Assembly (NCBI GenBank): GCA_902500755.1
Contig: CABVRV010000012.1
Coordinates: 1 to 56,466 of the forward strand
DNA: 56,466 bases
From: an uncultured Nitrospira sp.
GTDB lineage: Bacteria; Nitrospirota; Nitrospiria; Nitrospirales; Nitrospiraceae
Reading direction: 5' to 3'
The notes beneath the pieces were generated by a model that was given only the letters and a program-made list of their open reading frames with translations, searched no databases and was not told the origin of the DNA. Numbering within the stretch: position 1 is the first letter of the stretch; each line of letters begins with the position of its first letter. Below, piece by piece: positions 32,003-54,203 of the stretch. Made by a program: the position numbers and the translations under genes.

Positions 32003-32709
32003 TCAGCGTCGTGATGCCCGCCTATAATGAGGAAAAGGCGCTGCCGCACACATTGCGCGCATTGTACCTTCAGCAAGGCGAATTCGAAGTGATCGTAGTG
32101 GACGGCGGCAGCTCCGACGGGACACATGTCGTCCTATCGAACTTTGGTTTTCAGTGTCCCTCACCCCTTACGCCTTACCCCTCACGCCGGTTGTTAGCGG
32201 CTTCCAAGGGCCGGGCCTCGCAGATGAATGCCGGTGCCAAGCAAGCGAGGGGAGAGTGGTTGCTCTTTCTCCATGCCGATACCCAGTTGCCGGTCGGGGC
32301 AATTCAGCAGCTCAATGATATGGAGAGCGATCAGACCATTCAGGCCGGCGGCTTCATGCATCAGTTCTCCGGAGACGACTGGCGGCTCCGACTCATCTCG
32401 TACTTGGATAACTTTCGATGTGTTCGGAGCCGGATCATCTATGGTGACCAAGCTCTTTTTATCCGGCGATCCTTGTTTGAAGAATTAGGAGGGTTTCCTC
32501 ATCAGCCGATTCTTGAAGACGTTGCCTTTTGCGAACGACTCATCAAAAAGACATCCCCTCTGATCCTCTCTCCGCCAGTCGTTACGGATGCGCGTAAGTT
32601 TCTGAAGATGGGCATCGTTCGAAGTTTTGTTCGCGTCCTCTTGATTATCCTACATGTCGAATTCCACCTGCCGGTGCTTCCTCGATCCTTTTTCCAAGAT
32701 GTGCGGTAG
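31999..32709 (+). CDS. GT2-family glycosyltransferase (TIGR04283-like) with an internal repeat insertion
   Basis: 237 residues from the ATG in the ATGA overlap. It has the GT-A start ISVVMPAYNEEKALPHTLRAL, EVIVVDGGSSDGT, KGRASQMNAGAKQARGEWLLFLHADTQLP and DQALFIRRSLFEELGGFPHQPILEDVAFCERL. These match the TIGR04283 rSAM/selenodomain-associated transferase group, found with radical SAM genes. An odd stretch of about 13 residues (QCPSPLTPYPSRR) between the DGGSSDGT strand and KGRASQMN is encoded by an intergenic-type repeat (32157-32189). The core motifs on both sides are intact, so activity may survive. Confidence 0.88.
   Translation: MISVVMPAYNEEKALPHTLRALYLQQGEFEVIVVDGGSSDGTHVVLSNFGFQCPSPLTPYPSRRLLAASKGRASQMNAGAKQARGEWLLFLHADTQLPVGAIQQLNDMESDQTIQAGGFMHQFSGDDWRLRLISYLDNFRCVRSRIIYGDQALFIRRSLFEELGGFPHQPILEDVAFCERLIKKTSPLILSPPVVTDARKFLKMGIVRSFVRVLLIILHVEFHLPVLPRSFFQDVR
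32157..32189. repeat. Short CCCTCACCCCTTACG-type repeat inserted in a coding region
   Basis: Pyrimidine-rich iterations (CCTCACCCCTTACG, CCTTACCCCTCACG) form a degenerate tandem of about 12-bp units, unlike the flanking codon usage. It lies in frame within the glycosyltransferase gene and adds about 11 codons. It resembles intergenic repeat DNA more than coding sequence. Confidence 0.65.
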
Positions 32710-32904
32710 TGCCTCGTTTCAGCCCAGGCCGGTGCTTACGCTAGATTTGCTGCAGTCCGCCTCTGACGTGTGATAGAAGGCGTTTGGAACCCCATCGCTA
32801 TCAACGCCCCCTGCTTTTGCTGGGCCTAAGTGTTCCAAGATCCCCGTTTACCTTTCCCTTCCCTCTCCGTCTAACCCATCAGACAAGGTTGGAAGGAGGG
32901 GATT

Positions 32905-33345
32905 ATGCAACCATTCTGTTCAAGAGTGTGCGCGTTTGTTCTATCCGCTGCGCTGTTGTCGTCCGGCTGTACCTCGACCTTAGTACGCGATGAGGTGAAA
33001 CGGACGGCTGAGGTGGAAGGGCATTGTTCAGGGAGTGAGTGGGTCGACGATTCGTCCATAGCAGTTCTGCCAGTCCCGGTTGTCTCATTTGTGACGCCTC
33101 ATGTCGATCTTCGTAACGTGTCCGGTGAACCATATGTGAGTCGCTGTGGCGCTTCTACTCAGGTCATCAATCGCGATGTGTCGGTGAATCGTGTCGCCTG
33201 CATTCCGGCTGGGTTGACCCGGATTATCAGCTTAGGTGTCTGGCAATGGTGCCCGGTGCGCGTCACCTGGTCTGCCGACGTCTTGGCCAATATGCCCAGT
33301 TCCACCACCTTTTCGCTCGGTCAGCAACGAAAGCAGAAATCGTAA
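32905..33345 (+). CDS. Hypothetical lipoprotein
   Basis: 146 residues with a lipoprotein signal: LSAALLSSGC with lipobox S-S-G-C22. The mature part contains four further Cys (EGHC, SRCG, VACIP, WCPV), which could form disulfides in the periplasm. No family recognised. GGAGGGG lies upstream of the ATG. It precedes the DUF5666 gene by about 25 bp and may share its transcript. The 195-bp gap before it holds no gene. Confidence 0.7.
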   Translation: MQPFCSRVCAFVLSAALLSSGCTSTLVRDEVKRTAEVEGHCSGSEWVDDSSIAVLPVPVVSFVTPHVDLRNVSGEPYVSRCGASTQVINRDVSVNRVACIPAGLTRIISLGVWQWCPVRVTWSADVLANMPSSTTFSLGQQRKQKS

Positions 33346-33372
33346 CCACAATTGTTCAACAAGGAATACATG

Positions 33373-34803
33373 ATGAAAACCTCACGATGGATCGTCAGTT
33401 GGTTGGGGATGATGGGACTCGCGGGACTCCTTGCGGCTTGTGGCAGTGAGGGAGCGCCATCTGTATCGGCAAGTGGATCGGGGAGCGGTTCCGGCTCCGC
33501 GTCGGCGTCGGGCACCATCACCGGCTTCGGTAGCGTCTTCGTCAACGGCAAGAAGTTTGAGACGAGGGGTTCTTCGTTCACCGTCGATGGCCAATCCGGC
33601 AGCCAGAGCGATCTCAAGGTCGGGATGACCGTGACGGTCAACGGCTCGTTGAACGGGAATGAACGTTCGGCGAGCACCGTTCTTCAGAAAGATGCGGTCG
33701 AGGGGCTGGTCCAATCGGTGGCCTCGGATGGTCTCAGCTTGGTTGTCATGGGGCAAACGGTATTGGTGGACGATGCCACCTTGATCGACGACAACATCCC
33801 CGGACGAAATGTTCGCAATCTGGTGGCCGGAACCGATCACGTCGAGGTGAATGGCCACATTCGTTCGAATGGTGTCATTCAGGCGACGGTCATTGAGAGG
33901 AAGCTGGTCAATGTTACACCGGAAGTTCGTGGCTTCGTGAGCAATCATAGTGCTGGTTCATCGACATTTCGGATCGGAAACCTCTCGGTCAATTACAGCG
34001 GAGCAGACATCAGTGACATGTCGATCCCCAATGGCAACAATTGGGACGGTCGTTTTGTCGAGGCCAAGGGAGCAAATTTCAACAGTGTCTCGACGACGCT
34101 CTTTGCAACGAAGGTCGAGCCCGAGAACCAGGGCATCGGTCAGGCAATCGATGAATTGGAGGTCGAAGGGTTTGTGACACAGGCCGGTACACCAACCGGC
34201 AGCAGTCTCGAGTTCACCATTGGGACTACTCCTGTGAGGACGACGAACAACACGGAGTTCCGGGGCGGGACAGTTGATGAAATCGTGGTCGGCGCTAAGA
34301 TGTCCGCCGAGGGTCGATTCGATGGCAGCACACTCATCGCCAAGCATGTGAAGTTCCAAGACAGTGTACGACTCGAAGGCGATATCGCCACGATTGGATC
34401 GAATGCGTTCACCATCAACGGTTTGCCTGGGGTCAGCGTCAGGGTGAACAGCCAGACGGATCTCAGAGGTATCAGCCTGGGTGCGCTGTCGCCTGGTGAC
34501 CATGTGCGGGTGCGTGGTCGCGTCGGCGGCACAGCCTCAGTCAGCGCCACACGTGTCGAGCTGCGCTCAGCCGATACGGATCTGGATCTTCAAGGGCCGG
34601 TTCAACCGATCACCGGCAATAACCTGGTCATTCTTGGTGTATCGGTGGATACGAATTCGATCAAGCACTTTGAGAGTGTGAGCGGCTCGTCCATGAGTCG
34701 CGCGGGATTCTTGGCAACGGTGAAGGTGAATTCACTTGTGAAGTTTAAAGGGGAATGGAACGGGACTGTGGCGGTGTGGGACGAGGCAGAGTTGGAAGAT
34801 TAG
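33373..34803 (+). CDS. Exported multi-repeat DUF5666 lipoprotein
   Basis: About 476 residues from the ATG at 33373 (AAGGA 7 bases upstream; the ATG at 33370 is equally possible). The lipoprotein signal ends LLAACGS, followed by a Gly/Ser linker and five or more OB-like DUF5666 repeats (GTITGFGSVFVNGKKFETRGSSFTVDG; LVQSVASDGLSLVVMGQTVLVDD; EGFVTQAG...LEFTIGTTPVRT; GDIATIGSNAFTINGLPGVSVRV). The function of DUF5666 proteins is unknown; the repeats suggest an extracellular or periplasmic scaffold. It heads a run of secreted proteins leading to an ECF sigma factor. Confidence 0.85.
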   Translation: MKTSRWIVSWLGMMGLAGLLAACGSEGAPSVSASGSGSGSGSASASGTITGFGSVFVNGKKFETRGSSFTVDGQSGSQSDLKVGMTVTVNGSLNGNERSASTVLQKDAVEGLVQSVASDGLSLVVMGQTVLVDDATLIDDNIPGRNVRNLVAGTDHVEVNGHIRSNGVIQATVIERKLVNVTPEVRGFVSNHSAGSSTFRIGNLSVNYSGADISDMSIPNGNNWDGRFVEAKGANFNSVSTTLFATKVEPENQGIGQAIDELEVEGFVTQAGTPTGSSLEFTIGTTPVRTTNNTEFRGGTVDEIVVGAKMSAEGRFDGSTLIAKHVKFQDSVRLEGDIATIGSNAFTINGLPGVSVRVNSQTDLRGISLGALSPGDHVRVRGRVGGTASVSATRVELRSADTDLDLQGPVQPITGNNLVILGVSVDTNSIKHFESVSGSSMSRAGFLATVKVNSLVKFKGEWNGTVAVWDEAELED

Positions 34804-34867
34804 CTAGGCGCCTATCAGTACGTAAGCGAGACTGTGACGACGTGTGACACAACAAAGGAGATGACGG

Positions 34868-35437
34868 ATGAACCGTATCAGTTGGAAAGAAATCATGGTA
34901 GGGACGCTCGCGGGACTCTCGGTCATGGCCTCACCGGCTGTGGGGAAGATGCATGGTCCCATTGAAGGATCAGAGATGCGTATAGACAACCGGGGGCATA
35001 GGTCACTCAATAGCGGGCCGGAATCGCTGAATAGTGGTCCTGAATCCATCAACAGAGGTCGAGATAGTGGAGAAACTGGAACAAGACACGGGCGAGACTA
35101 TACCGTTATGGCTCAAGCCAATGACGTACGCCAGGAAGATCGACGAGCGGACCGGAGAGAGGACCGTCGAGACGATCGCCGGATGGACAGGCAAGAGGAT
35201 CGCCGTAACAATCAAAGGTCGAACGCCGACGACGAACTCCGCGGATTGGATCGGGCCGACCATGCGGCCGGCGAACATGGCAGAGAGGGCCGAGAGAATG
35301 CCCGCATGATGCAGATGGACCGGCCGAACCGACCAGAGCGAATGGAACGATTTGAACGACCAGAGCGCCAAGATCGCCTCGAAAAACCGGAGCGGCCCGA
35401 ACGCCCCGAGAGACCTGAACGCTCTGGGAGAAACTAG
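34868..35437 (+). CDS. Hypothetical exported Arg/Glu/Asp-rich low-complexity protein
   Basis: 189 residues with a signal peptide (about 1-27). A short tandem repeat (LNSGPES twice, then INRGRDS) follows. Then come charged repeats: RQEDRRADRREDRRDDRRMDRQEDRR and a C-terminal RPER/ERPE series. This is likely a disordered, highly charged periplasmic or surface protein. No family recognised. AAAGGAG is 7 bases upstream of the ATG. A strong terminator lies 31 bp after the stop. The composition resembles the Arg/Asp-rich tail of the protein at 38388-39281. Confidence 0.7.
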   Translation: MNRISWKEIMVGTLAGLSVMASPAVGKMHGPIEGSEMRIDNRGHRSLNSGPESLNSGPESINRGRDSGETGTRHGRDYTVMAQANDVRQEDRRADRREDRRDDRRMDRQEDRRNNQRSNADDELRGLDRADHAAGEHGREGRENARMMQMDRPNRPERMERFERPERQDRLEKPERPERPERPERSGRN

Positions 35438-35467
35438 ATCGAGTCAACCAGCACAATGTGGAGCGGC

Positions 35468-35498
35468 AACGGCGTCGAGGCTGTCTCGACGCCGTTTT
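35468..35498 (+). terminator. Intrinsic terminator
   Basis: Arms AACGGCGTCGAG and CTCGACGCCGTT pair perfectly over 12 bp with a 5-nt loop, followed by a short T-run. It separates the DUF5666/charged-protein transcript from the beta-barrel gene. Confidence 0.8.
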
Positions 35499-35624
35499 GC
35501 TGTGTGTGCCGACTGTCCATCGGATCGTTGCACGTCGCAAGGGCCGTTGCTAATCTAGCAATTATGTATTGGTTCGTAAGAGATGATATGGCCGAAGAGA
35601 TCTGCAGCCAGAAAGGGATGGTGA

Positions 35625-36539
35625 GTGAAGATGCGGAAGCGGATGGTCGCGGTGGTGACAATGCTCGGGATCGTTGGATTGTGGATGGGACAACTGTTTG
35701 CAGCAGATCCGATCGACAAGCGACCACAGCCCGCGTCTGAAAGAAATTGGCAGATCGGGATGACCCCCAGTTACAGCAGCGGCAACTTCGGCACCAATAC
35801 CACCAGTGAATTTGTGTACGTCCCGTTTTCGGTGCGTCGGTACTTTAGAGACGGTGATGTGTCGTTGGTCATTCCGTTTGTGTCCGTCACTAGTAACGGC
35901 ACGGCGACGTTAGTCGGCGGTCAGCCGATTCAAACCTTGCCTGGACGGTGCCTCAAGAAGGGTGGAACAGAAATCGATACCGACAAGCCGGAGTGTCTTG
36001 CCTTGCTCAATGCCGGTCAGGGAGTCGCAGGGCAGGCGGCTCAAAAGGTGACCAATTCAGGTCTCGGCGATATCATCCTCAGGGGGCGCTACTATCTCGT
36101 GGAAGAACGTGACTATGTTCCACTCATTGCGATCACGGGGCGATTAAAGATCCCTACCGCGAGTGAAGGAAAGGGTTTGGGAACCGGCGCCCTTGATCAT
36201 GGGTATGGGATCGAGATGTCCAAGCTCATTGGAGAGAAGTGGTTGGCGTTCCTCGACGGCGGATACAATTTCATCGGAAATCCGAATGGCGTGGAGTTAC
36301 AGAATCAATATTGGTATGACGTCGGTGCCGGGTACTATTTCACCAAGAACCTCCTGGCGAGCGTCTATTTTGAAGAGTATCGGGCACTGGTGCCCGGCCT
36401 GGTGAATATTCGAGATTTCTTTTTTGCGATGAATTACAAAGCGTCCGCCGCGTGGAGATTCAATGGTGGCGTGGCGGTCGGTGTCTCCAATGGGGCACCG
36501 GACTATGTCGTTTCAATCGGCACCAGTTACCGGTTTTAG
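35625..36539 (+). CDS. Outer-membrane beta-barrel protein (transporter/MetA-like)
   Basis: 304 residues starting at GTG (an ATG at 35631 is an alternative). The signal peptide ends FAADP. The mature protein has alternating beta-strand patterns (WQIGMTPSYSSGNFG, EFVYVPFSVRRYF, LGDIILRGRYYLVEE, WYDVGAGYYFTKNLLASVYFEEYRAL) and ends in aromatic YRF, typical for outer-membrane insertion. It resembles the MetA-pathway phenol-degradation/transporter barrels. Substrate unknown. It directly precedes an ECF sigma gene. Confidence 0.8.
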   Translation: MKMRKRMVAVVTMLGIVGLWMGQLFAADPIDKRPQPASERNWQIGMTPSYSSGNFGTNTTSEFVYVPFSVRRYFRDGDVSLVIPFVSVTSNGTATLVGGQPIQTLPGRCLKKGGTEIDTDKPECLALLNAGQGVAGQAAQKVTNSGLGDIILRGRYYLVEERDYVPLIAITGRLKIPTASEGKGLGTGALDHGYGIEMSKLIGEKWLAFLDGGYNFIGNPNGVELQNQYWYDVGAGYYFTKNLLASVYFEEYRALVPGLVNIRDFFFAMNYKASAAWRFNGGVAVGVSNGAPDYVVSIGTSYRF

Positions 36540-36622
36540 CCGGACCGTCCATCTTTTGAGGCTGTTTACGCCGCTCAGACCCTTGCGTCTAATGACATGT
36601 GTAGGCCAAAGCAGACGGTCCT

Positions 36623-37237
36623 GTGGCATTGGACCAGACTAACCGGAGTCGGAGCATGCCACCGGATCAGCAGGTAGGACCCGATGATGCGCAACTGGTT
36701 GCCCGCAGCCTCAAGCACGATCATGAGGCGTTCGGACAACTGATCGAGCGATATGCGTCCACGATTGTGAACTTGTCCTATCGGATGGTGGGCAATCGTG
36801 CAGAAGCTGAGGATCTGGCTCAGGAAGCGTTTCTTACAGCCTTCAAGGCGCTACCAACCTTTCGTGCGGATTCCAAGTTCTCGACGTGGCTCTACCGGAT
36901 CGGAGTCAATAAGTGTAAGGACTGGTTGCGAGCCAAGCGTCCGGGAAAGGGACCGGCCGATCTGGATGTTGATGAGGCTTTGGATAGCCATGTTGCTGAA
37001 ATGCAGACACCCGAACGGCTACTTTCACAGCAGCAGGTGGCTCAGGAGCTGGAACAGGCGATCGCGCGCTTACCACCTCTCTATCGTGAGGCATTCGTCC
37101 TGAAGCACGTCGAAGGGCTCAGTTATGAGGAGATGGAAGAGATCCTTGAGGTGAATGGTGACACGTTGAAAATGCGGGTCTATAAAGGGCGGCTTCAACT
37201 CAGTCGAGACCTCGCCGCCCTGAACCCGGCGCGGTAG
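36623..37237 (+). CDS. ECF RNA polymerase sigma factor (RpoE-like)
   Basis: 204 residues with region 2 (HEAFGQLIERYASTIVNLSYRMVGNRAEAEDLAQEAFLTAFKALPTFRADSKFSTWLYRIGVNKCKDWLR) and region 4 (LEQAIARLPPLYREAFVLKHVEGLSYEEMEEILEVNGDTLKMRVYKGRLQLSRDL). The start is the GTG at 36623; the ATG of MPPDQQ at 36656 is possible. It is followed 22 bp later by a membrane protein with an anti-sigma-like N-terminus and a glycogen-binding domain, so release is probably controlled across the inner membrane. Confidence 0.95.
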   Translation: MALDQTNRSRSMPPDQQVGPDDAQLVARSLKHDHEAFGQLIERYASTIVNLSYRMVGNRAEAEDLAQEAFLTAFKALPTFRADSKFSTWLYRIGVNKCKDWLRAKRPGKGPADLDVDEALDSHVAEMQTPERLLSQQQVAQELEQAIARLPPLYREAFVLKHVEGLSYEEMEEILEVNGDTLKMRVYKGRLQLSRDLAALNPAR

Positions 37238-37259
37238 GACGTGGCGATACGGTGACCAT

Positions 37260-37940
37260 ATGATTGAACCAGCGCTCCTGATTCAACGTTTCCTGGATGA
37301 TGATCTCACGCCGGAGGAACGGGTTACTTTTTTGCAGGCGGTTGATGCCGACCCTATGTTACGTCGGCGTTGGCTCAATCTGGAGATGGTGGTCGCTGAA
37401 GCGTCGCGATTACCGAAGTTGATCCCATCGCCGAGGTTCTTGAGTGAGCTCAAGGTCAAAGTTGCCCCACCGGTCCCCAACTGGTGGGAGCGCTTGTGCG
37501 CCGCTGTGACCACGTCGCGAACGTTTGAGTGGAACCTGGCCGGTGCCGCTGCCGCGGTTTGCGTCGCAATTGTGGCGGTGGCGGGGCTGTTGACCATGAT
37601 GCCGGAACGAGTGGTGGAGGTGCCGGTCGCGACGGCCCCAACCCAGACGACTGCAGTCGGGATGAAACAGGAGCCGACGGTGTTTGTCCGGCTCGTCCTC
37701 CTACAACCAGAGGCACGATCTGTCTCTGTGGCGGGAGACTTTAATGGATGGAACCCGGCGCGAACGCCCCTGGAACGGTCGGACGGCGGGATGTGGACCG
37801 CCACGATTCCCCTTAGCCCCGGTCGATATCAATATATGTTCGTCATTGACGGTACACAATGGATCGCCGATCCGCTGGCGACTGAAGAAGCCACAGATGG
37901 GTTCGGCTCACACAATGCGGTGCTTGATGTGGAAATTTAG
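37260..37940 (+). CDS. Anti-sigma-like membrane protein with C-terminal CBM48 glycogen-binding domain
   Basis: 226 residues. The cytoplasmic N-terminus (about 1-50, IQRFLDDDLTPEERVTFLQAVDADPMLRRRWL) resembles anti-sigma domains but lacks the zinc HxxxCxxC. One membrane helix follows at about 92-113. A CBM48/AMPK-beta-type domain occupies about 140-226: VSVAGDFNGWNP (W164), YQYMFVIDGTQWIADP (W201) and SHNAVLDV (N219). These match the aromatic and Asn positions that bind glycogen in AMPK-beta; the usual Lys is Met193. The predicted topology places the CBM48 in the periplasm. Position directly after an ECF sigma gene supports an anti-sigma role. This is inference. Confidence 0.85.
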   Translation: MIEPALLIQRFLDDDLTPEERVTFLQAVDADPMLRRRWLNLEMVVAEASRLPKLIPSPRFLSELKVKVAPPVPNWWERLCAAVTTSRTFEWNLAGAAAAVCVAIVAVAGLLTMMPERVVEVPVATAPTQTTAVGMKQEPTVFVRLVLLQPEARSVSVAGDFNGWNPARTPLERSDGGMWTATIPLSPGRYQYMFVIDGTQWIADPLATEEATDGFGSHNAVLDVEI

Positions 37941-37993
37941 CGTGCGCTCGGAACTCCTTGCAACAGGCCTAGTCCTTCGGTACTCTCCCGCGT

Positions 37994-38383
37994 ATGCATA
38001 CGAGACCGACGGGGCTCAGCCTGCAATTTCAGACCCTCATCATCGTGATCATCCTGGCGTGTGGATTCTGGGCCTGTGCCAACCTTCCAGTGATAAAACC
38101 GGACATGCCCAAGCCTCTGGCCGGGACTGTGCGTTTCACGGTGGTTGTGCGGGGGGCCAAACAGGTCTTTCTCGTCGGGTCCTTCAATGGCTGGGTCAAG
38201 GAATCGACCCCGATGAAAACCATGCATGGCTCCTCGCTCTGGTCGGTTGATGTGCCGCTAGCAGAGGGAGAACACACGTTCATGTATGTGATCGATGGAG
38301 TTCGATGGATGACGCCGCCTCAGGCTGAGGATTTCGTCACCGATGGGTTTGGGCAAACAAACGGGGTCGTGATCGTGCGGTAA
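37994..38383 (+). CDS. Exported CBM48-domain protein, possible lipoprotein
   Basis: 129 residues. The hydrophobic N-terminus (about 12-28) contains C23 and C28, possible lipidation sites, though the lipobox is imperfect. The rest is one CBM48 domain: VRFTVVVRGAKQVFLVGSFNGW (W67), FMYVIDGVRWMTPP (W105) and GFGQTNGVVIV (N123). It parallels the domain of the upstream anti-sigma-like protein and keeps the same two tryptophans and Asn. It lies 53 bp downstream in the same direction, so the two may sense or compete for the same polysaccharide in the envelope. No catalytic domain is attached. Confidence 0.8.
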   Translation: MHTRPTGLSLQFQTLIIVIILACGFWACANLPVIKPDMPKPLAGTVRFTVVVRGAKQVFLVGSFNGWVKESTPMKTMHGSSLWSVDVPLAEGEHTFMYVIDGVRWMTPPQAEDFVTDGFGQTNGVVIVR

Positions 38384-38387
38384 GGCG

Positions 38388-39281
38388 ATGAGCAAAAGAA
38401 GGAACATAGCGATGGGAGTGCTGAGCGTGATGGTCACGTTGACCACTACTTCGGTCTTGGCCGAACCCCTCTCGGTTCAGGATCGAGAAGCGATCAGCCG
38501 GCTTGGCTCGGCGCAGGGTCGTTCGGAGAGCGAGATTACTCCCTTACTGGAACACGTGAACAAGGCCGGCGAGCGGGGGCTTCCCACGGAGTCGTTACTG
38601 AACAAGGTGAGGGAAGGTCTGGCGAAAGGGGTTGAGCCAAAGCGCATCGATCCGGTGCTGCGGCAGATGACATCTCGGCTTGAGTCTGCTCATGAAGTCT
38701 TGGAAGAAGCGAAGGGTCGCGGCATGCCCGAAGGCAATCGGCAGCGCGCGCTGGAAACCATGGCTGAAGCGTTTACGCGAGGAGCCACGCCGGACGAGGT
38801 GCGGGAGCTGAGTAGACTGTCTCAAGAAGGCCGTCATAAGACGACGCAGGAAGAACTCGCGGCAGGCGCAAAGGGCTTAGCCGTGATGAAGGAAGGACGA
38901 ATTCCGTCGAAAGACGGAACTGCCTTGGTCGGAGAAGGGATGAAGCAAGGCTATCGTGCGGCTGAGCTCTTGGACCTCAGCCGAGAAGTGCGACGGCGAG
39001 GGTCTGACTTTGAAGAAGGCCGTGCCAGTCTTCAAACACTTCGAGACAAGGTCAGCAAAGGGGAACGAAGCGATCGACTCTTCCATGATGAGCACGGCGG
39101 CTCCGGTGGCGATCGCGATCGTGGTCGTCGGGATGACCGTGGTGGGCGAGACGATTCAGACCGTGAGCGGTCTGATCGATCAGACCGCTCTGGGCGCAGC
39201 GATCGTCCGGACCGAATTGACCGTCTCGACAAAGTGGACCGACCAGATCGTTCGGATCGGTCAGGCCACGGCAGGGACTGA
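38388..39281 (+). CDS. Hypothetical exported helical protein with Arg/Asp/Ser-rich tail
   Basis: 297 residues starting 4 bp after the CBM48 lipoprotein gene. The signal peptide ends SVLAEP. Residues about 30-215 form amphipathic helical repeats with recurring GRGMPEGNRQRALETMAEAFTRG, GVEPKRIDPVLRQM and RGLPTESLLNKVREGLAKG motifs. The last 75 residues are a low-complexity DR/SDR/RPDR tail. No family recognised. The tail resembles the charged protein at 34868 and contains a 26-bp perfect DNA palindrome. It ends the sigma/CBM48 gene run. Confidence 0.75.
   Translation: MSKRRNIAMGVLSVMVTLTTTSVLAEPLSVQDREAISRLGSAQGRSESEITPLLEHVNKAGERGLPTESLLNKVREGLAKGVEPKRIDPVLRQMTSRLESAHEVLEEAKGRGMPEGNRQRALETMAEAFTRGATPDEVRELSRLSQEGRHKTTQEELAAGAKGLAVMKEGRIPSKDGTALVGEGMKQGYRAAELLDLSREVRRRGSDFEEGRASLQTLRDKVSKGERSDRLFHDEHGGSGGDRDRGRRDDRGGRDDSDRERSDRSDRSGRSDRPDRIDRLDKVDRPDRSDRSGHGRD
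39165..39190. repeat. Perfect 26-bp palindrome inside the Arg/Asp-rich coding tail
   Basis: GAGCGGTCTGATC is followed directly by its reverse complement GATCAGACCGCTC. Within the gene it encodes E-R-S-D-R-S-D-R-S. It may be a by-product of repeat expansion or an mRNA hairpin. Confidence 0.75.
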
Positions 39282-39413
39282 CCGGGCTGAATCAGCTATT
39301 TCCTACATGCTAAGAATTTCGACAACGCTCAAGCCGGCTAGTAATGTGCCTTCCCGACCTGTGGAAGGTTAAGTGCCATGTCACCTCCTGAAATCCCCTG
39401 CTAGAATGCTCTC

Positions 39414-42056
39414 ATGGAAGTGATCGCTACGCACAGCAATGCGGATTTTGATGGTGTGGCCTCCATGGTGGCTGCGCGAAAACTTTTTCCGAATGCCAAG
39501 CTGGTCTTGCCCGCCGGCGCACAGGAAACGGTTCGCAATTTTCTCGCCGAGCACGATCTGGACATCGTCAAGCTCAAAACGATCGACCATTCTCAAATCA
39601 CCAGGCTGATCCTCGTCGACACCCAAGATCCCGATCGAATCGGATCACTCAAGTCTTGCGTCGAGGATCCCTCCGTTGAGGTGGTAGTGTTCGATCATCA
39701 TGTTGACGAGGTCTCTCCATGCACCGGTCGTTCTTCGTTGTCGATTGTACAGACCGCCGGCGCAACGACGACGTTGCTCATTGAACAACTTCGCCAAAGA
39801 AATATGACGGTGACGCCTTTTGAAGCAACGGTGATGGCTCTTGGCCTTTACGAAGAAACCGGCTCGTTCGGCTTTGTCTCCACAACCGCTCGAGACCTCC
39901 AAGCCGGCATCTTTCTTCTGGAGTCCGGAGCAGACCTGACGGTCGTCATGGATGTTCTTCGCCGTCCACTGGATGCCGATACCGTGGCGCTCATGAACGA
40001 TCTGCTGGAACATAGCGACATACAGTATTTGGAGGGGCGTAAAGTTCTCATCGCAACCAGCACCAGCGATCGACGTCGAGGTGAAGCAGCCGGTGTCGTG
40101 CACTTGCTCGCTGAAATGGAGGGTGTCGACGCCGTCCTTGTCGCCGTGATGATGGAAGATCGAGTGCAGGTGATCGGAAGAAGTCGCCGGCCTGAAATCG
40201 ACGTCGGGTGGATCGCCCGGGAGTTTGGAGGTGGTGGTCATGCTGTTGCCGCTGCCGCGACGGTCAAGGGACAGACACTCTCGGAAGTCAGAGAGCGACT
40301 CGTCGAACTGCTCACGACGCGCTATCGGCCCACCCTCTTGGCACGAGACGTCATGACTCATCCGGTACAGTTCATTGGAGCGGATACCACTGTTTCGGCA
40401 GCCGGGCAACGGTTGACGACCTATGGGATCAACGTGTTCCCCATTCTCGATGAACATGACCATTTTGTAGGAATGATCGGTCGGGAATTGATTCAAAAGG
40501 CCTTATACCATCGGCTTGGCAAGGCAGCTGTTCGGGACATCATGCAAACCGATGGTTACACTGCAGAGCCGGAGACGCCGTTTCATGACATTGAAGTCGC
40601 CATGATCGAGCGGAACCAGCGGTTCGTTCCTGTTCTGAAAAAAACACAAATCGTGGGCGTGATTACGAGGACCGATTTGCTGAGAACGATGCACAACGAT
40701 GTCCTGAAAAATGGCATTCGCGGCGTTCATGATGTATCCCAACTCAAGGCAAGAGGGCCGCATCGCAACGTGACGGCATTGCTTCGAAGCCGATTGCCTA
40801 AGCACGTGGTGACCTTGCTGGAAGAAGCAGGGCGCTTCGCCGATCGCTCGGATGTACCGCTGTACGTCGTCGGCGGCTGTGTCAGAGATCTGTTGCTGAA
40901 CATTAAAAACCTGGATCTGGACTTGGTCGTAGAGGGCGATGGAATCGCGTTCGCGCGACAACTCGGTGAGGTCGTGCATGCTCGCGTGAAGGTGCACGAG
41001 CGATTCGGCACGGCCATCTTGCTGCTGCCTGATGGATTCAGACTGGATGTCGCCACCGCAAGGACGGAATACTACGAATATCCGACCGCCCTGCCGACGG
41101 TGGAGCAAAGTTCCATCAAGAAAGACCTCTACCGCCGGGATTTTACTATCAACGCGCTGGCCATCCGCTTAAACGGAAAGGGCTTTGGGGAAGTCCTGGA
41201 CTTCTACAGCGGGCAACGGGATCTGAATGAGAAGGTCATCCGAGTGCTGCATGGATTGAGTTTTGTGGAGGATCCGACTCGCGTCTTCCGTGCCGTTCGT
41301 TTTGAGATTCGCTATGGATTCCGCTTAGGACGGGATACCACGGCTCTCATCGAGGGAGCCGTGAAGATGAACCTGTTCAATCGATTATCCGGACATCGTG
41401 TACTGGAAGAGCTGAAGTTGCTCCTCACAGAGCGTGAGCCAAAGCTGGCAATCAAACGATTGGCAGACTTGGGTCTGCTGAAGTTCTTCCATCCCAAACT
41501 GTCGTGGTCGAATCGTTTAAGTGTCCTGCTCAATGCCGTCGATCAAGCGGTCGACTGGTATCGACTCTCCTATCTCGATCGGAAAATGGACGTGTGGATG
41601 GTTTATCTCATGGCACTGTTGGAAGTCTTACCGGAGCGAGCCGTCTCAGAGGTTCTCAAGCGATTTCCTTTTTCTGAGTCAGAAGAGACCAAGCTAAGAA
41701 CGGCTCGTCGGAGTTGCCACACGGTGATTCGTCGACTTGGAACGCGATCGCCGCTCAAGCCGGCAGAGGTGTATGGTGTGTTGTCTGAACTCTCGGATGA
41801 AACGCTTCTGATCATCATGGCAAAGAGCAAGGGCGAGACGGTCAAGCGGCAGGTCTCAGCCTTTCTCACGACGTACCGGCACGTAAAGCCACTTCTGACG
41901 GGTACCGACCTGAAGGCGATGGGGATGAGACCGGGTCCACAGTTCAAGAAAGTCCTCGACCGACTACTCGAGGCTCGCTTGAATGGGGACGTTACGACCG
42001 AGTCTGATGAGCGGAGACTCGTGAACACACTGGCGGGTATAGGAACACCCGGCTAG
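39414..42056 (+). CDS. cca: CBS/DHH-domain CCA-adding (or A-adding) tRNA nucleotidyltransferase
   Basis: 880 residues with three modules. A DHH phosphoesterase plus DHHA1 occupies about 1-310 (THSNADFDGVASM, VDTQDPDR, VFDHHVDE, GGGGHAVAAAATV). Two CBS domains occupy about 315-430 (ARDVMTHPVQFIGADTTVS, VRDIMQTDG). A class II poly(A) polymerase/CCA-transferase head occupies about 450-880 (LYVVGGCVRDLLLNIKNLDLDLVVEGDG, RRDFTINALAIRL, EDPTRVFRAVRFEIRYGF). The catalytic D-x-D and the RRDFTINA motif are intact. This architecture is known from Aquificae and related phyla. It matures or repairs tRNA 3' ends; whether it adds C, A or both cannot be read here. Confidence 0.93.
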   Translation: MEVIATHSNADFDGVASMVAARKLFPNAKLVLPAGAQETVRNFLAEHDLDIVKLKTIDHSQITRLILVDTQDPDRIGSLKSCVEDPSVEVVVFDHHVDEVSPCTGRSSLSIVQTAGATTTLLIEQLRQRNMTVTPFEATVMALGLYEETGSFGFVSTTARDLQAGIFLLESGADLTVVMDVLRRPLDADTVALMNDLLEHSDIQYLEGRKVLIATSTSDRRRGEAAGVVHLLAEMEGVDAVLVAVMMEDRVQVIGRSRRPEIDVGWIAREFGGGGHAVAAAATVKGQTLSEVRERLVELLTTRYRPTLLARDVMTHPVQFIGADTTVSAAGQRLTTYGINVFPILDEHDHFVGMIGRELIQKALYHRLGKAAVRDIMQTDGYTAEPETPFHDIEVAMIERNQRFVPVLKKTQIVGVITRTDLLRTMHNDVLKNGIRGVHDVSQLKARGPHRNVTALLRSRLPKHVVTLLEEAGRFADRSDVPLYVVGGCVRDLLLNIKNLDLDLVVEGDGIAFARQLGEVVHARVKVHERFGTAILLLPDGFRLDVATARTEYYEYPTALPTVEQSSIKKDLYRRDFTINALAIRLNGKGFGEVLDFYSGQRDLNEKVIRVLHGLSFVEDPTRVFRAVRFEIRYGFRLGRDTTALIEGAVKMNLFNRLSGHRVLEELKLLLTEREPKLAIKRLADLGLLKFFHPKLSWSNRLSVLLNAVDQAVDWYRLSYLDRKMDVWMVYLMALLEVLPERAVSEVLKRFPFSESEETKLRTARRSCHTVIRRLGTRSPLKPAEVYGVLSELSDETLLIIMAKSKGETVKRQVSAFLTTYRHVKPLLTGTDLKAMGMRPGPQFKKVLDRLLEARLNGDVTTESDERRLVNTLAGIGTPG

Positions 42057-53216: not shown

Positions 53217-54203
53217 ATGATGAGCAGGCGAAGGAGTTGGCTAAGTAAGATCGAGGCCGGCGTACTGATCTGGGGAATGCTACTGACTGGCAGTGGCCCA
53301 GGGGTTGCCTCCGCCGCTTCCCCCACGACGGAAGAAATCCTCGCCAAGGTCGATCAGATTTTGACAGCTATCGGCAGCATCCAGGGAGGCAATTCCACAC
53401 TCCGATGGGATCAGAATCTGCCGGCGGCGCAACGATTCGTTGTGTTGGCAGCCTTCAACAATCAGGCGGTGCTGGATAAGGAAACTGGATTGGTCTGGGA
53501 ACAGGCTCCGTCGACGACGAATCATACCTGGAGTGAAGGCCGCATCCAATGTCTCGGTCGTACGATAGGAGACCGAAAAGGTTGGCGATTACCATCAGTC
53601 TCGGAATTGTTCAGCTTGGTCGATACGGCAAGCTCTAGCCCAAGTTTGCCGTTGGGCCATCCGTTTATCGGTGGTCAGCCTCTCGGCTTTTATTGGTCGT
53701 CAACGTCCAATGCTGAGGATTCCACAAGAGTGTGGGGTGTGAGTTTTAGCCAAGGTAGCATCTTCTTCCCTCCAAAGAACTGGGATCGGAACCTCCCAAG
53801 CGCTTCTCGGTTTACGGTCTTGACGGAATTTAGTAGCGCAGCCGTGAGGGACAACAACACCGGTCTTGTGTGGGAGCAGGCGCCAGAGTTTACGACTATG
53901 GCATGGCCGAGCGCGATTTTTTATTGTCTCCGGAAAAATGTTGGGGGAACCGTGGGGTGGCGGCTCCCCTCAGTGGTTGAATTGAAGAGCGTCCTAGATC
54001 CCACGCTCCCGGGGCCCTTTGTTCCGACGAGTGTGTTTACCGGTGTCCAGACGTTCGTCTATTGGTCGGCCTCGACGACAGCCGCAAGTCCTACTTCGGC
54101 GTGGAGCGTGCTCTTCAACGACGGCGACGTGAACACCTTTGCTAAAGGTCTCACCGCCCATGTTTGGTGTGTGCGAGGTCCGATGCAAGAGTCCGTGTAT
54201 TGA
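53217..54203 (+). CDS. Exported protein with two DUF1566 (Lcl C-terminal-like) domains
   Basis: 328 residues from the ATG at 53217 (GGGAGGG upstream; the longer frame from 53124 lacks support). A signal peptide (about 1-34, ending SAA) is followed by a short coiled segment. Two DUF1566 repeats follow: FNNQAVLDKETGLVWEQAPS...GWRLPSVSELFSLVD...FYWSST and SSAAVRDNNTGLVWEQAPE...GWRLPSVVELKSVLD...YWSAST...VWCVRG. The G-W-R-L-P-S motif is diagnostic. The fold is C-type-lectin/FGE-like and found on cell surfaces; its role is unknown. The interval 52977-53216 holds no gene. Confidence 0.9.
   Translation: MMSRRRSWLSKIEAGVLIWGMLLTGSGPGVASAASPTTEEILAKVDQILTAIGSIQGGNSTLRWDQNLPAAQRFVVLAAFNNQAVLDKETGLVWEQAPSTTNHTWSEGRIQCLGRTIGDRKGWRLPSVSELFSLVDTASSSPSLPLGHPFIGGQPLGFYWSSTSNAEDSTRVWGVSFSQGSIFFPPKNWDRNLPSASRFTVLTEFSSAAVRDNNTGLVWEQAPEFTTMAWPSAIFYCLRKNVGGTVGWRLPSVVELKSVLDPTLPGPFVPTSVFTGVQTFVYWSASTTAASPTSAWSVLFNDGDVNTFAKGLTAHVWCVRGPMQESVY

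Follow-up and report, generated by a model that had tools for sequence, protein, structure and literature searches.

We analyzed a 56,466-nucleotide stretch of DNA from an uncultured Nitrospira sp. (contig CABVRV010000012.1 of assembly GCA_902500755.1; hereafter the window) and found in it a predicted autoregulated regulon of envelope proteins, governed by an extracytoplasmic function (ECF) sigma factor whose putative anti-sigma factor carries a glycogen-binding-type module, carbohydrate-binding module family 48 (CBM48), in a predicted periplasmic position. Judging from sequence comparisons, it is highly probable that the two adjacent genes form a sigma/anti-sigma system. Whether the pair works as a CBM48-gated switch, by which a glucan-type sugar in the envelope would turn on two neighboring operons, and a single gene located elsewhere, that encode predicted exported or outer-membrane proteins, appears to us evenly balanced.

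The sigma factor (36623..37237, plus strand, as are all features of the window given below) has 204 amino acids and comprises regions 2 and 4 only, with matches above the Pfam cut-offs to Sigma70_r2 (75.8 bits) and Sigma70_r4_2 (51 bits). Against the PDB it matched SigH and SigW, including the SigW chain of the SigW-RsiW complex (5wuq_A; E value, 3.2e-30). The following gene (37260..37940) encodes a protein of 226 amino acids, whose structure model shows four N-terminal helices within residues 4-68, a helix at residues 92-112 (37533..37595), which is the predicted single membrane segment, and a beta domain at residues 141-224. Residues 1-69 (37260..37466) are assigned to a class I anti-sigma-type domain. 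A profile of the diverse anti-sigma family (A3, positions 5-75) matched RsiW (5wuq_C) with an E value of 4e-10, and the sigma and anti-sigma families map to the two chains of this one solved complex. Furthermore, the N termini of the Nitrospira proteins aligned to those of the Atribacterota proteins, which are of the zf-HC2 type, with an hhalign probability of 95.9, whereas 20 column-shuffled controls did not exceed 1.2, and three of the 10 distant relatives scanned combine zf-HC2, above the cut-off, with CBM48 in one protein. The zinc motif Hx3Cx2C was not found when the N terminus of the window protein was inspected. An earlier reading of the window from its letters only (hereafter the original prediction) had described an anti-sigma-like N terminus without zinc ligands followed by one membrane helix, and these results accord with it.

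The C-terminal part of the same protein (residues 138-226; 37671..37937) is a CBM48/AMPK1_CBM domain, with scores of 44.2 bits for both AMPK1_CBM (residues 151-225) and CBM_48 (residues 148-207). The next gene (37994..38383) encodes a predicted exported CBM48 protein of 129 amino acids (AMPK1_CBM, 40.3 bits; CBM_48, 29.9 bits), which is likely a lipoprotein, with a lipobox at Cys23; its invariant cysteine is Cys28. All four scores exceed the Pfam cut-offs. Together with the modeled beta domain, they bear out the proposal that the anti-sigma protein ends in a CBM48 domain and that a second, exported CBM48 protein with the same key residues follows it. Trp-164, Trp-201, and Asn-219 of the anti-sigma protein are placed as in AMPK-beta and were invariant in 15 of 15 aligned Nitrospira orthologues; Trp-67, Trp-105, and Asn-123 of the exported protein were invariant in 16 of 16. 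Among 72 anti-sigma-CBM48 proteins (that of the window, those of loci L060-L109, and 21 chosen distant ones, excluding the frame-broken L111 and L113 and the partial L125 and L133), Trp-164 was kept in 72, Trp-201 in 71, Asn-219 in 70, and Phe-215 in 72. Conservation was also higher in the CBM48 end than in residues 1-135 in all 14 loci compared. We infer from these sequence features that the domain may bind a glucan. It had also been stated that CBM48 is normally cytoplasmic, which is too strong, as the closest solved relatives of the domain include a pullulanase and feruloyl esterases (in alignment rows that cover residues 138-226 only and are uninformative on the N-terminal domain), and some such enzymes are secreted.

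In the databases, the anti-sigma-CBM48 proteins (P0106, P0068, and others) are variously named "glycoside hydrolase family 13" or "isoamylase early set domain-containing protein," and three JGI copies are named "anti-sigma factor RsiW." A third CBM48 protein of the same genome (C7:41666-42022; L004:5667-6023) has 119 amino acids, a K/R-rich N terminus, and no evident signal peptide; its gene lies on contig C7, which also holds several glycoside hydrolase family 13 (GH13) genes, and similar proteins occur in other genomes of the genus.

The sigma gene opens a set of four genes, the last of which (38388..39281) encodes a predicted exported, all-helical protein with "EGLAKGV" repeats and an R/D-rich tail, here named the helical-repeat protein. 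Since the intergenic gaps, taken from the coordinates, are only 22, 53, and 4 bases, the four genes most likely form one operon. No Pfam family scored above the cut-off in the helical-repeat protein, and a Foldseek search with its model (pLDDT, 79.7) gave no PDB fold match at an E value of 0.001. Further copies of this family lie at L118:6783-7784, L120:6627-7538, and L128:7986-8924, among others. Thus, the three genes of the original prediction are real and located as it said, according to gene calls and Pfam scores; it overlooked the helical-repeat gene, which is the more constant partner, and a promoter motif common to two operons.

To gauge conservation, we scanned genome contigs with the Nitrospira alignment, which yielded 256 relatives; the best 80 of these, which are not a random sample, were examined, so that the distribution given here is a lower bound. 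In 55 loci (L060-L114), nearly all annotated as Nitrospira, Nitrospiraceae, or similar and two as acidobacterial, the anti-sigma gene was preceded by a sigma gene and followed by a CBM48 partner in every case, and the helical-repeat gene was matched in 54, the exception (L104) ending at a contig edge. Fourteen loci of the genus whose anti-sigma gene is complete (L033-L046), several of which are the same contigs as in the former set, had the sigma gene (14/14), the exported CBM48 gene (14/14), and the helical-repeat gene (13/14, the last being cut by the contig end). In a further set (L110-L139, sharing L110-L114 with the first), the anti-sigma-CBM48 gene had a same-strand ECF sigma gene no more than 0.9 kb upstream of it in 25 of 30 loci; L131, L134, L136, L137, and L139 hold other CBM48 proteins with no upstream sigma gene. 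A conserved sigma/CBM48 neighborhood in other genomes had been named beforehand as a test of the original prediction; it was found, and this synteny rules out chance adjacency.

The 25 sigma-linked loci are annotated as Nitrospirota, Vicinamibacterales/Acidobacteria, Atribacteria, Elusimicrobia, Gemmatimonadaceae, Deltaproteobacteria, Fodinibius (a strain), and Spirochaetota. The pair is thus present in about seven lineages besides Nitrospira; because most records are metagenome bins, single lineage assignments could be misplaced. With only its helical part as a query (E value below 1e-4), the helical-repeat protein was detected in 21 of these 25 loci, its gene lying mostly after the anti-sigma gene. 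Among the misses, L115 and L117 lie at contig edges, L135 was marginal (0.011), and L138 had none. It is the most constant partner of the anti-sigma-CBM48 protein, with ties seen in many lineages. Across 39 genomes of the genus, 17 had both the sigma factor (E values up to 1e-40) and the helical-repeat protein (E values up to 1e-10), none the sigma factor only, three the repeat protein only (including G007, where it is partial), and 19 neither, giving totals of 17 and 20, respectively (Fisher P = 2.6e-8, kinship being ignored). Nitrospira moscoviensis and "Candidatus Nitrospira defluvii," both of which are cultured, carry the system (L102 and L106).

The motif GTTTAC-N16-CGTCTAA was read from an alignment of 55 sigma-gene upstream regions (the window and 54 loci) and then found ahead of another operon, which begins with the gene that we named lp146. 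In the window, it marks two predicted ECF promoters: P2 (36564..36592), whose start lies 59 bp 5' of the sigma gene and which would provide autoregulation, and P1 (32846..32874), an exact match ahead of the upstream operon. The window holds three loose matches, where 0.05 are expected and none of 100 shuffles reached three; one of these is the sigma promoter itself. Another (54035-54060) does not have the TAA end; it was judged to be due to chance and was not counted. The loose form GTTTAC-N15-17-CGTC occurred within 150 bp of the start of the sigma gene in 43 of 55 loci, the set from which the motif had been derived, of lp146 in 26 of 32, and of the DUF5666 gene in 4 of 33, all four being loci without an lp146 match. 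The same search before six other genes (rich189, MetA, anti-sigma, exported CBM48, helical-repeat, and a downstream DHH gene) gave 0 of 284.

Besides, of 34 genomes, 12 contain the exact 29-base pattern, at 27 sites in total, versus three for a reversed control. The cluster's two promoters account for 15 of these sites; the remaining 12 stand before a barrel-type open reading frame (four sites), an lp146 relative (five), a DUF5666 gene (two), or no clear target (one). One of the four barrel-type frames is cut short at 114 amino acids, and the barrel of our own genome scored 50.2 bits for PF13505. The two DUF5666 sites, in G002 and G008, may belong to the upstream operon of the cluster itself, located on a separate contig. 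In our genome, the exact sites are three, namely, P1, P2, and that of the outer-membrane barrel gene. All predicted regulon members of recognizable type are predicted envelope proteins. The site without a clear target, L148:1501-1529 (G005:C80), has no exported gene close behind. A one-mismatch search of our genome added two sites, versus two in the reversed control; neither precedes a clear exported gene, and they were not counted. Genome-wide, TGTTTAC-N15-17-CGTC gave four matches versus eight in the control. A scan of positions 32700-39600 for sigma-70 promoters and terminators found nothing clearly above shuffles (promoters, 4 versus 2.5; terminators, 5 versus 5.3).

The upstream operon brings the locus to eight consecutive genes. 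The gene lp146 (32905..33345) encodes a small predicted exported protein, likely a lipoprotein, that has no Pfam match and has relatives behind the same promoter elsewhere. It is followed by a predicted exported DUF5666 protein (33352..34803; PF18914, 112 bits in five stretches), whose start codon is uncertain, by rich189 (34868..35437; also named here), a syntenic, predicted exported protein with an R/D/E/P-rich tail and no Pfam match, and by a predicted outer-membrane beta-barrel of the Phenol_MetA_deg family (35625..36539; PF13557, 39.9 bits). Long charged R/D/E-rich tails are found in both rich189 and the helical-repeat protein.

With regard to the exported partners, a PROSITE-like lipobox pattern was found in 11 of 16 Nitrospira CBM48 partners and in all eight distant partners examined. 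In Fodinibius roseus, a 419-amino-acid, predicted barrel-like exported protein with a C-terminal CBM48 is encoded directly after the anti-sigma-CBM48 gene (L128:6711-7967); its barrel was judged by sequence and has no Pfam barrel match. Relic loci in G030 (L047:9774-10734) and G033 (L048:4414-5174) have lost the sigma and anti-sigma genes or keep them as fragments, with the exported CBM48 and helical-repeat frames open; in the former, a remnant of lp146 still has the promoter motif in front of it. As both proteins are retained there without the sigma factor, they may do more than serve it.

We propose that residues 1-69 would hold the sigma factor in the cytoplasm, with the CBM48 domain sitting in the periplasm on a flexible linker (residues 117-132). 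Ligand binding would make the linker accessible to a site-1 protease, after which a protease of the S2P/RseP type would free the sigma factor; S2P-family proteases are present. The CBM48 lipoprotein and the helical-repeat protein, as predicted regulon products, probably act on, display, or sequester this ligand as well, so that feedback would result. We give about an even chance to glycan-gated control of the sigma factor in this form. Competition between the two CBM48 proteins, which the original prediction had suggested, does not hold as a general mechanism, because, of the 25 distant loci with a linked sigma gene, only 12 were found to have a second CBM48 gene beside the pair, some of the contigs ending nearby. 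A wider claim is decidedly more tentative: the CBM48-gated anti-sigma factor might read an alpha-glucan-like polymer in the Gram-negative envelope and, with the new helical-repeat family, control outer-membrane composition, as a widespread and undescribed class of signaling.

Several observations weigh against the proposed switch. The anti-sigma assignment of the window protein depends on distant relatives, because the Nitrospira-only profile reached no solved anti-sigma factor, the Pfam scan of the protein gave no anti-sigma domain, and the NCBIfam anti-sigma model scored 23.9 against a cut-off of 100. The charge bias flanking the membrane helix is weak (2 versus 1 K/R in 20 residues), and the predicted topology therefore rests on the anti-sigma role. 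No glucan hydrolase, synthase, or sugar transporter was recognized in the predicted regulon. The position aligned to Lys-126 of AMPK is Met-193 in 65 of the 72 proteins, and lone CBM48 proteins of cytoplasmic appearance share the two tryptophans and the asparagine, so that these residues indicate a conserved sugar-binding surface but do not by themselves point to sensing. Moreover, no copy of the motif was detected ahead of the sigma genes of other lineages; with G or A as the first base, it precedes the sigma gene in only 2 of the 25 distant loci (L114, Nitrospirales, and L111, a frame-broken Nitrospira locus). In one genome of the genus, G007, the exact promoter motif occurs, although the sigma factor was not matched there. 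Finally, 22 of the 39 genus genomes, some of them incomplete, had no sigma match, and the system is therefore dispensable.

Protein docking is a serious rival to the putative glucan binding, since no glucan enzyme is recognized in the regulon. The CBM48 domain would then be bound by the helical-repeat protein, the CBM48 lipoprotein, or a barrel, as RseB binds RseA, and would report the state of outer-membrane or export assembly. This is possible, with a likelihood that we place well short of even. It would explain why the most constant neighbor is the helical-repeat gene, whose usual place after the anti-sigma gene resembles the order of rseA and rseB, where rseB follows rseA; the envelope character of all recognizable regulon members and the fusion of the second CBM48 of Fodinibius to a barrel-like protein (L128) are likewise in its favor. 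However, docking does not require the sugar-contacting residues that are near-invariant in the 72 proteins, and no RseB family was matched in Pfam by the helical-repeat protein of the window or by five distant ones.

If the glycan-gated switch is correct, its ligand could still be an envelope or environmental glycan other than an alpha-1,4-glucan, e.g., a sugar of exopolysaccharide or lipopolysaccharide. We regard this as improbable, with the CBM48-bearing feruloyl esterases among the structural matches, the signature DGFGxxN, and Met-193, the latter two of which depart from AMPK, speaking for it. Far less probable is a reversed topology, with a cytoplasmic CBM48 sensing stored glycogen and the sigma pairing being incidental or acting through the other side: the set of GH13 genes and the lone third CBM48 protein on contig C7 and the weak positive-inside bias would fit, but the cytoplasm is where class I anti-sigma domains operate, one helix divides the two halves, and the partner CBM48 looks exported, as its lipobox counts suggest. 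It is equally hard to credit that the second protein is an unrelated membrane CBM48 protein co-transcribed by chance. The missing Pfam anti-sigma match would agree with this, whereas the family-level match to RsiW and zf-HC2 and the nearby sigma gene in the other lineages argue for an anti-sigma factor.

A literature search on anti-sigma factors with CBM48, AMPK1_CBM, or isoamylase early set domains found no description of such a protein among candidate papers, as far as their titles and the beginnings of their abstracts tell. None of the words CBM, carbohydrate, and glycogen appears in the main text of PMC7406223, whose domain plots are in figures and supplements, or in that of PMC8103513. 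ECF pairs and anti-sigma factors bearing carbohydrate-binding modules are known; the combination, the partner family, and the regulon were not found in the literature searched. If the switch is real, carbohydrate-sensing anti-sigma factors would extend from clostridial cellulosome control to Gram-negative ECF systems, with a module of the type that animals use to read glycogen. Genes now labeled as isoamylase early set or GH13 proteins can be assigned a definite predicted regulon, with its promoter and a family of partners. An alpha-glucan ligand would further imply an envelope glucan pool in Nitrospira and several other lineages, for which, to our knowledge, no one has looked. Because the two cultured species carry the system, one can directly test a signal by which a key nitrifier may have its outer membrane remodeled.

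Among known systems, SigW-RsiW (5wuq) has a homologous sigma factor and an anti-sigma domain homologous at the family level; RsiW is not known to have a CBM48, the window protein does not have the zinc motif, and the regulons differ. RseA-RseB-SigmaE likewise has a membrane anti-sigma factor, a gene for an exported protein after it, and a regulon with outer-membrane proteins, whereas here the helical-repeat proteins scanned have no RseB match and the predicted periplasmic part is a CBM48. In contrast to AMPK-beta CBM48 (1z0m, 4yee, and 4yef), Lys-126 is replaced by Met and Leu-146 by Phe, and the domain is on a bacterial anti-sigma factor, predicted to lie outside the cytoplasm. FecR, of FecR/FecI signaling, had no match in the Pfam scan to an E value of 1. 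We consider RsgI of Clostridium thermocellum the best analogy to the proposed mechanism. Its C-terminal module binds polysaccharide outside and its N terminus binds the sigma factor (PMC4711584), and RseP and ClpXP complete sigma release (PMC12203970); such release is established for RsgI, and only proteolysis is proposed for Nitrospira. The Nitrospira system differs in its ECF sigma factor with regions 2 and 4 only, its class I anti-sigma-type N terminus in place of RsgI_N, its CBM48 in place of CBM3, PA14, or GH10, and a predicted regulon of envelope proteins, not cellulosome enzymes. It does not belong to the RsgI/SigI family, because RsgI_N was absent from the Pfam scan of the window proteins to an E value of 1 and the sigma factor is of the ECF type, not sigma-I. 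Both systems have adjacent genes for a sigma factor and a membrane anti-sigma factor, the latter with a cytoplasmic N terminus, a membrane segment, and a C-terminal carbohydrate-binding module, and in both the sigma factor controls its own promoter; for Nitrospira, this topology and autoregulation are predicted.
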